NCBI GenBank assembly: GCA_016200085.1
Contig: JACQFL010000019.1
Location: 1-64,000, forward strand
Reading direction: 5' to 3'
DNA: 64,000 nucleotides
Source of the DNA: Candidatus Rokuibacteriota bacterium
GTDB lineage: Bacteria; Methylomirabilota; Methylomirabilia; Rokubacteriales; CSP1-6
Shown: positions 9,938 through 11,452 of the stretch, in pieces
How positions within the stretch are numbered: position 1 is the first letter of the stretch
Layout: each line of letters opens with the position of its first letter
Notes under the pieces: model-generated
Database searches by the model: none
Told to the model about the DNA's origin: nothing
What the model saw: only the letters and a program-made list of their open reading frames with translations
Position numbers and translations under genes: made by a program

Positions 9938-11419
9938 TCAGAGTCCTCGCAGGGCCAGGGTGGCGACGGCGCCGGTCACGAGGTCCACCGTGCGGATCGC
10001 GTGGTTGTTGGTGTCGGCGACGTAGAGCCTGCCGCTCGCGACGCTCACGCCGCTCGGCTCGCTGAAGCGGGCGGTCTCTCCGGCCCCGTCGCCCCGGCCC
10101 GGAGCGCCGGCGCCCGCGAACGTCCGGCACTCGGCCGTGCGCGGGTCCAGGCGCTTGATCTTGTGGTTGTAGGTGTCGACGACCCAGAGCACGCCGTCGT
10201 GCCACGCCACGCCGAGCGGGTGCTGCAGCCTGACGTTCGCGGGGCCGACCCCGTCCCGGTCGCCGAACTCGAAGAGCCCCTCGCCGACGATGGTGTGGAT
10301 CGCCCCGCCCGGCCGGGGGTCGATCCAGCGCACCGCGCTCGCCTCGCTGTCGGCGACGAACAGGTAGACGCCGTCGGTCGCCAGCCCGCTCGGCTGGTTC
10401 ATGGCCGCCTCCGGCAGTGGCCCGTCCTCGAGGGCCTCGCGGCCGTTCCCCGTGTGCGGAGCGATCGAGTCGCCACCGAGCGGCATCGCCCACAGCTGGT
10501 GCGTGCCGGCCATCGCCACGTAGAGCACCCCGCCGACGATGGCGAGGTCCCACGGCGAGCTCAGGTCGGTCTCGAGCGCCGGTCCGCCCGCGCGCGGTCC
10601 CATCAGCTGGGCGCCCGTGCCCGCGAGGGTCTCGACCGATCCCGTCGCCAGGCTCACGGCCCGTAGCGCGTGGTTCTCGGTGTCCGCGACGAGCAGCGTG
10701 CCGCCGTCGAGCGCGAGGCCCTGGGGCTGATAGAACGTCGCCGCCGTCGCGCCGCCGTCGTCGAAGCCCTCCGCCCCTGAGCCGATGACCCGCACGACCG
10801 CGCCGTCGTGGCCGGCCACCACGATCCGGTTGTGCCCGGTGTCGCTGACGAAGAGCCGATCCGCCGTGGCGAGCACCTTGCCCGGGAAGAGGAGCGGGCC
10901 GTCCGCGACGGGGCGCTCGGCAGCGGACGAGAGGGGCCGGCGATCGAGCAGGCCGGCGGCGTCGAACTCCTCGACCATCTCGTGGATCAGGCCGTCGAAC
11001 GGCTCGAGCGGGAACTCACCCTCGTGCTTGCCGATGACCTTGCCCCCGGGGTCGACGAACATCAGCGTCGGCCACGCGCGCACCGCATAGGATTGCCAGA
11101 CCCGGAAGTCGCGGTCGTTGATGACGGGATGACCGACGTCGAGCCGGAGGATCGCCGCCCGCACCGCCTCGGTCTCCTTCTCGGCGATGAACTTCGGCGA
11201 GTGCACGCCGATCACGGCCAGCTCGCGGCTCCACTTGCGCTCGAGCTTCCGCAACTGCGGAAGGATGTGCAGGCAGTTGATTCAGCAGAACGTCCAGAAG
11301 TCGAGGAGCACGAGCTTGCCGCGGAAGTCGCGCAGGCTCAGCGGACGCCCGGCGTTGAGCCACTCGGCATCGGGGGGAAAGTCGGGCGCGTTCACCTTGC
11401 CGGCGTACCGCTGCTGCAT
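9938..11419 (-). CDS. thioredoxin-like/NHL-repeat selenoprotein (NHLRC2-like), TGA read as Sec
   Basis: Read through the TGA at 11282-11284, this is a 493-residue protein. It has an N-terminal thioredoxin-like domain (about 1-150), then NHL beta-propeller repeats ([45 protein letters not shown] and others) to the C-terminus. The TGA falls at residue 46, in the frame [23 protein letters not shown]. Human NHLRC2 and relatives have C-C-I-N-C here, so the UGA replaces the first Cys of the CxxC redox motif, the usual place for Sec. A perfect 7-bp hairpin with loop AGUU follows the TGA. No signal peptide is seen, so it is probably a cytoplasmic thiol oxidoreductase. The ATG at 11419 has a GAGGAGG ribosome-binding site. 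Without readthrough the gene would be cut into a 45-residue stub and a headless propeller. Confidence 0.88.
11246..11263 (-). promoter_or_regulatory. bacterial SECIS element of the NHLRC2-like selenoprotein
   Basis: On the coding strand CTTCCGC pairs perfectly with GCGGAAG around the loop AGTT. The loop begins 25 bases after the TGA, and G is its second base, followed by U. This matches the bacterial SECIS rule: a short stem-loop inside the coding region, with G in the first two loop positions and the loop 16-37 bases after UGA. It encodes part of the helix after the redox motif (LPQLRK). Confidence 0.8.
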
Positions 11420-11452
11420 GGCGGCCTCCTCGGGCGCCCATCGTACAAGTCC

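Follow-up and report, generated by a model that had tools for sequence, protein, structure and literature searches.

A predicted selenocysteine form of the NHLRC2/SOQ1 family of thioredoxin-like NHL-propeller proteins in Rokubacteria

The locus and its protein product

The window, a 64,000-nt stretch of a Candidatus Rokuibacteriota genome, carries on its minus strand a gene for a thioredoxin-like and NHL-propeller protein whose frame holds just one TGA before its stop, as codon 46 in the context FWTFC-U-INCLH (Table 1). The coordinates of the gene and the motif around the TGA are as given in a preliminary description of this DNA.

Table 1. Features of the gene in the window and selenocysteine-related genes elsewhere in the same genome
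Feature	Position	Strand	Basis or remark
Thioredoxin-like and NHL-propeller protein gene	9938..11419	minus	493 aa with the internal TGA read as Sec
AGGAGG ribosome-binding-site-like motif	11426..11431	minus	6 nt before the ATG; sequence read
Start codon ATG	11419-11417	minus	sequence read
Thioredoxin-like (AhpC-TSA/Thioredoxin_8) domain, about residues 11-127	11039..11389	minus	Pfam matches at residues 11-128 and 34-128; AlphaFold secondary structure
Internal TGA (codon 46), the predicted Sec in UxxC (C45-U46-I-N-C49)	11282..11284	minus	65 homologous loci have TGC/TGT at this codon
Predicted SECIS hairpin (stem CTTCCGC/GCGGAAG of 7 bp; loop AGUU, its second base G)	11246..11263	minus	conservation, codon constraint
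TTG Leu codon overlapping the hairpin loop; start of the mechanical ORF	11252..11254	minus	invariant in 20/20 TGA-form NHL genes (Rokubacteria and Chloroflexota)
NHL beta-propeller, about residues 179-493	9941..10885	minus	Pfam NHL, 108 bits; AlphaFold strands from residue 179 on
Terminal stop TGA	9940-9938	minus	sequence read
tRNA-Sec	C54:9397		69.8 bits vs gathering score 47; ARAGORN anticodon TCA
SelA	C54:10955		586.9 bits
SelB	C54:12343		362.7 bits
SelD	C12:115796		334.8 bits; internal TGA in SCAG-U-ASKM
Own copy of the short redoxin	G000:C55:5506-5934 (L139:2007-2435)		FWTFG-U-YNC

Over their cut-offs, the Pfam profiles for NHL repeats, AhpC-TSA and Thioredoxin_8 matched the product; the classical thioredoxin models fell short (PF00085, 21.8 bits vs a cut-off of 23.5; TIGR01068, 23.3 vs 96.8). 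The best solved relative by sequence was SOQ1 (PDB: 7djj; E 2.3e-119, query residues 10-492), and NHLRC2 (PDB: 6gc1) was matched at E 9.5e-104 over residues 9-489. An AlphaFold model, built from a 19-row alignment with Cys written for Sec, had a mean pLDDT of 89.9 and compared with SOQ1 (PDB: 7djk) at TM 0.87 and with NHLRC2 (PDB: 6gc1) at TM 0.85. Domain order, sequence matches and fold thus agree with the NHLRC2-like identity that had been proposed, and the window protein is a thioredoxin-NHL protein of the NHLRC2/SOQ1 family. The two hallmarks of that family, a thioredoxin-like domain followed by an NHL propeller and a CC(I/V)NC motif as described in PMC6107167, are both present, the motif in the form C-U-I-N-C with a predicted Sec for the second Cys.

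Human NHLRC2 shares this architecture, is 39% identical to the window protein and carries CCINC at residues 89-93, U46 aligning with the second Cys, Cys-90. It differs in having Cys in place of Sec, in an additional C-terminal beta domain and in being eukaryotic (PMC6107167). The lumenal domains of Arabidopsis SOQ1 (7djj, 7djk), the top match by both sequence and fold, likewise contain CCINC, whereas SOQ1 itself is a thylakoid protein with Cys at this site and with HAD and C-terminal domains (PMC6107167, PMC10173003). NHLRC2 is described as essential in mammals, where variants lead to FINCA disease, and SOQ1 as controlling photoprotective quenching in plants (PMC10173003).

Comparison of gene neighbourhoods over 24 kb of the window pointed to no partner or function for the gene, and just three window ORFs outside its own place were matched in this region, each in one relative. 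Upstream of L053-L064 lie neighbours shared among up to eight other loci of SAR202/Dehalococcoidia type, including a dienelactone-hydrolase-like protein (named by eye); L053 also has a duplicated protein upstream to which inspection by eye gave no name. Upstream neighbours of this type were not found beside the window gene.

Codon 46 and the downstream hairpin across homologues

We collected 130 loci and scanned them with motif patterns that also admitted Ser, Thr, Ala, Gly and the other stops at codon 46. Among the 107 motif-bearing loci, codon 46 was TGA in 42, TGC in 38 and TGT in 27 (65 Cys loci), and a third residue was absent from all 107. As had been stated of its relatives, the TGA thus aligns to the Cys that opens CINC in Cys homologues and in SOQ1. 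The 23 loci without the motif comprise 20 from the machinery and tRNA searches (L001-L020), two that lack the N terminus (L035 and L118) and L072, a 108th homologue of Cys form that the motif pattern missed owing to a TGA at its conserved Trp codon in DFWTYG and that stands outside the counts. Three TGA loci (L051, L052, and L128) repeat genomes already present, as judged by sequence and identical SelA coordinates. The 39 distinct TGA loci consist of 27 long thioredoxin-NHL forms, L036 being a fragment, and 12 short redoxins that lack the propeller.

A search of 95 genomes of the phylum returned 15 with a match at E ≤ 1e-100, of which 12 have one TGA, two have Cys and one (G026) is split across contigs so that the matched piece does not include the TGA, which lies on the other. 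Among the 80 loci listed in a further search, Chloroflexota too have long TGA forms, their titles naming SAR202, Dehalococcoidia, and Ardenticatenia. Apart from L112, discussed below, all 26 long TGA forms keep the Cys that precedes the TGA, so that a selenenylsulfide could draw on C45, U46, and C49.

The preliminary description had noted a perfect 7-bp hairpin with an AGUU loop 25 bases past the TGA. The hairpin is real; the distance is that to the start of the loop, as the stem begins at 18 nt. Such a downstream stem-loop with a small apical loop containing G is what has been described for bacterial SECIS elements (PMC1088965). The hairpin exceeds chance expectation: when we counted hairpins of this kind, with a perfect 7-bp Watson-Crick stem and a 4-nt loop with G in its first two positions, the two strands of the window together had 1288 TGA triplets, and 5 of these were followed by one at 9-27 nt. 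Reshuffling synonymous codons at the gene's own usage gave an equally good stem in 0.4% of 1000 draws (p = 0.004). An Rfam scan and ARAGORN returned no matches in the 64,000-nt window; since the hairpin has no Rfam match, the predicted SECIS was judged by conservation.

The objection raised in advance, that homologues with TGA might lack the hairpin, did not hold for the window gene: a stem-loop stands at the expected place in 38 of the 39 distinct TGA loci, unbroken in 34 and with one mismatch each in L029, L030, L036, and L055. We aligned 32 of these sequences, 20 long ones from Rokubacteria and Chloroflexota and the 12 short ones, leaving six NC10-type loci to a second alignment and L112, which has no hairpin, aside. 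The four inner pairs are invariant, and 92.4% of cells are paired, as against 33.5-64.7% when the pairing is slid by one to three columns. The tally of doubly changed cells (21) and the covariation score each exceeded 500 of 500 shuffles; two of the five covariation measures, the pairs with both-side changes (2) and the further pair types (4), were not above shuffles in these 32 rows. The outermost pair in the long genes is C-G in 10, U-A in 9 and U-G in 1. At columns 24/37, the pair is U-A in 19 of 20 long genes and C-G in all 12 short ones, an exchange that follows the long/short split and so may be one event. The short family has no standard pair at the outermost position and forms the next pair in 8 of 12. 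When 54 nt past the TGA were folded, the lowest-energy structure included the hairpin in 18/20 long, 11/12 short and 3/6 NC10-type sequences, the exceptions being L054, L055, and L044 together with L029, L030, and L036.

Codon usage at the hairpin is strongly constrained. The codons CCG, TTG, and CGG (Pro-Leu-Arg) are each identical in 20/20 long genes and take ranks 1-3 of 222 columns for constraint, and the CAG of Gln is likewise identical in 20/20. TTG is otherwise rare: the seven Rokubacteria genes use it for 11 of 387 Leu codons, and in 7 of these cases it is the hairpin codon. The synonymous control gave p ≤ 0.012 in six of seven Rokubacteria genes (L025, 0.12) and p from 0 to 0.08 in 12 of 13 Chloroflexota genes (L055, 0.31); taken alone, the short-family hairpin did not go beyond synonymous chance in its 12 loci (p = 0.06-0.53). 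In the protein, 20 of the 27 long TGA forms have PQLR, which none of the 63 long Cys forms has; 42 of the latter have PDLK. The SECIS has probably left its mark on the protein, with PQLR in the TGA forms of Rokubacteria and Chloroflexota and PDLK in most Cys forms.

In the six distinct NC10-type loci the hairpin is of another sequence (L031: CCAGAGC-UGGAC-GCUCUGG), in which 92.9% of cells are paired; it offers no both-side changes and no covariation power, and L029, L030, and L036 each contain one mismatch. In the synonymous control, L031-L033 gave p = 0.014-0.023 and L029, L030, and L036 gave p = 0.28-0.53.

We also compared TGA and Cys loci, repeats included, by scanning for perfect stems whose loop has 3-7 nt, starts at 16-37 nt and carries G as its first or second base. 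Stems of at least 7 bp were found in 25/42 TGA loci vs 0/65 Cys loci and stems of at least 5 bp in 41/42 vs 5/65, a comparison partly confounded by composition, the Cys set being AT-rich and cyanobacteria-heavy. The Cys forms from the same phylum, L028 and L034, have stems of only 3 and 2 bp.

Selenocysteine machinery, exceptional loci and short redoxins

That the organism might have no Sec machinery was the other doubt raised beforehand, and it too was removed: tRNA-Sec, SelA, SelB, and SelD are all encoded in the genome (Table 1). The first three of these genes, selC, selA, and selB, are clustered within 5 kb (G000:C54:9397-14226; L140). SelD (G000:C12:115796-116740; L017) is a predicted selenoprotein itself; downstream of its TGA, a perfect CTCCTGG-GGATCT-CCAGGAG can be seen by eye, and the lowest-energy 54-nt fold differs from it.

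For the wider survey, only matches over the cut-offs were counted, all 14 control genomes having given weak tRNA-Sec, SelB, and SelD matches. SelA passed its cut-off in 84 of the 99 genomes, counting that of the window, and did so in 11 of the phylum's 12 full-length TGA-form genomes. The one exception, G032, is 77% complete and likewise shows no SelB or tRNA-Sec over the cut-offs. Among 42 named genomes, namely all 17 TGA-form and 25 of the 61 Cys-form genomes behind L051-L130, SelA was over the cut-off in 13/17 and 12/25, respectively, so that the machinery by itself does not separate TGA from Cys forms. Three of the four TGA-form genomes without SelA (G103, G104, and G113) have SelB over the cut-off, at a contig end in G113, and G104 also has tRNA-Sec; in the fourth, G102, neither SelA nor SelB is over the cut-off and there is only a borderline tRNA-Sec match (47.2 bits).

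One TGA locus does not fit. L112 (L112:3109-3168) has TGA at the Cys site together with PDLK and no hairpin (best stem, 2 bp), and its nearest neighbour in the tree is the Cys form L065. Its genome has tRNA-Sec (68.2 bits) and SelA and SelB over the cut-offs. L112 may reflect an error, decay or an unusual SECIS. In L072 (L072:3124-3126), a Cys form from an Acidobacteria draft genome, a TGA replaces the conserved Trp codon of DFWTYGCINC; this may be a sequencing error, decay or something else, and it means that stray TGA codons occur elsewhere in such draft genomes.

In a quick tree built from 64 long proteins (26 TGA and 38 Cys; 25 cyanobacterial-type Cys rows, three repeats, L036, and the short family were omitted), three changes of Sec/Cys state are needed, which could be taken to mean several independent origins of Sec. 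We set this aside, as constraining the 25 TGA rows other than L112 to a single clade fits, the likelihood being raised (p = 0.94). A single origin of the predicted Sec in these 25 rows is accordingly not rejected, while placing L112 within the Sec clade is (p = 0.005).

The same phylum contains a second family of Sec type, short DipZ-like redoxins (L037-L050) with the motif FWTYG-U-INC, in which TGA is found in 12 of 14 loci and Cys in two. They share with the window gene the U-INC motif, the TGA and the hairpin core CCGCAGTTGCGG, with GTG for TTG in 3/12; the core of the family reads CCCGC-AGTT-GCGGG, with AGGT as the loop in 3/12. They differ from the window protein in having no propeller and in carrying Gly rather than Cys before the Sec (12/12), and they form a separate long branch in the thioredoxin-domain tree. 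That tree neither supports nor rejects an origin of the hairpin by sharing with this family (p = 0.65). The short Cys form L042 (G004:C114:14096-14500) has a hairpin-like CCCGCAATTGCGGG (CCCGC-AATT-GCGGG) with no G in the loop, which looks like a relic SECIS left after a change from Sec to Cys.

Interpretation

Taken together, the alignment of the TGA to Cys, the conserved hairpin and the Sec genes in the genome support the proposal that Sec stands in place of the redox-motif Cys. We put the probability that the gene encodes an NHLRC2/SOQ1-family thioredoxin-NHL protein in which the UGA at the first Cys of CINC is decoded as Sec at roughly 93%. SelB carrying Sec-tRNA would bind the hairpin, a bacterial SECIS lying inside the coding region, and the ribosome would then read the UGA as Sec. 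By its position, the selenol at residue 46 would face the cleft to the propeller, like Cys-90 in NHLRC2, and could attack a disulfide or peroxide of a partner bound to the propeller, after which Cys-49 or Cys-45, next to the selenol, would resolve the intermediate. We are less sure of this redox step than of Sec decoding. Sec is retained mostly where a reactive selenol is used.

Given Sec insertion, the protein might nevertheless not be an oxidoreductase, its motif binding a metal or only stabilising the domain interface. We regard this as unlikely. It would suit the reports that NHLRC2 and its isolated thioredoxin-like domain had no insulin-reducing activity in the assay used and that the NHLRC2 CCINC motif sits at the propeller interface (PMC6107167), but a 2026 review holds most uncharacterised selenoproteins to be likely redox proteins, and many entries of its table show UxxC (PMC13188914). 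What the negative insulin assay does make doubtful is classical thioredoxin activity and, by analogy with NHLRC2, it argues that the partner would not be a general protein disulfide.

As to decoding itself, the locus could instead specify two proteins, a stub ending at the TGA and a propeller re-initiated at the internal TTG. A mechanical ORF of 438 aa does begin at TTG 11254, and such entries exist in databases: of the best 120 of 7998 matches, 102 cover just 85-90% of the query, and all 15 entries sampled from those 102 start downstream of codon 46, 6 of the 15 with MRKLERK. We nonetheless consider separate proteins very improbable. The TTG sits within the stem-loop and, like the CCG and CGG on either side of it, does not vary; starting there would deprive the thioredoxin fold of its first strands; in Cys homologues, SOQ1, and NHLRC2 a single chain runs across the TGA point; and six relatives, 72-77% identical across the TGA, are conserved on both its sides. 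These database entries largely bear out the expectation that gene callers would report only the propeller. They suggest a systematic annotation error, in which translation is made to begin at the TTG of the SECIS loop and thioredoxin-NHL selenoproteins are filed as cut propellers; some of the entries among the best 120 are named 'lactonase YvrE' or 'YncE'. Many database entries for the protein thus likely begin too late, and we infer that a TGA lies upstream in all 102 shortened ones.

Still less probable is a pseudogene or sequencing error, that is, a Cys codon turned TGA in a decaying gene. This could fit L112, and stray TGA codons such as that of L072 do occur in draft genomes, but 39 distinct loci from Methylomirabilota and Chloroflexota have the same TGA, 448-596 codons follow it without a stop in the complete long loci, and codon-level constraint peaks at the hairpin. 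The open frame is all that would speak for a changed code, with TGA read as Trp or another residue, or for SECIS-free read-through, and both are very unlikely: TGA is the stop of the gene itself and of 27 of the 31 long non-overlapping window ORFs (mechanical ORFs, some maybe spurious), the site is Cys in all 65 non-TGA motif loci, and the full Sec machinery is present.

The predicted Sec protein most likely represents an unlisted selenoprotein family. The 2026 inventory of 119 families and subfamilies (PMC13188914) lists no such family, and NHL and propeller are absent from its main text; term searches likewise found no NHL in the main texts of PMC12013277, PMC2398784, PMC9312934, PMC1088965, and PMC5029168, and a literature search of titles and abstract openings found no Sec-containing NHL or NHLRC2-like protein. 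The Redoxin, Prx-like, and TlpA-like selenoproteins in the inventory resemble the window protein in their UxxC motif, and many have a thioredoxin fold, whereas none of these rows is listed with an NHL propeller. A generic row, 'Redoxin family protein PF08534 UxxC' (HEU0032618.1), could in principle take in a relative, the short form being the likeliest. PMC13188914 cites Deng et al. 2026 (Cell Rep) for 63 selenoprotein genes predicted in a draft genome of Methylomirabilota, a work that may contain the window gene unnamed. What is new here is a selenoprotein form of an already-known protein family, a form that we did not find listed.

With distinctly less confidence than for the decoding, we favour a broader reading of this predicted Sec form of NHLRC2/SOQ1, in which it constitutes an unlisted family, the second Cys of CCINC is the catalytic nucleophile throughout the family, the human protein included, the SECIS has prevailed over the protein sequence, turning PDLK into PQLR, and the hairpin loop has served as the false start codon of truncated database propellers. 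The standing of CCINC as a redox centre in NHLRC2 and SOQ1 has been in doubt, given the negative result with insulin (PMC6107167). A bacterial form would spend selenium at exactly the second Cys of this motif, which points to a reactive chalcogen there. The predicted Sec form offers a more reactive, trappable version of the protein for substrate hunting and, if Sec is indeed placed at this position, the CCINC motif would be a working redox site.
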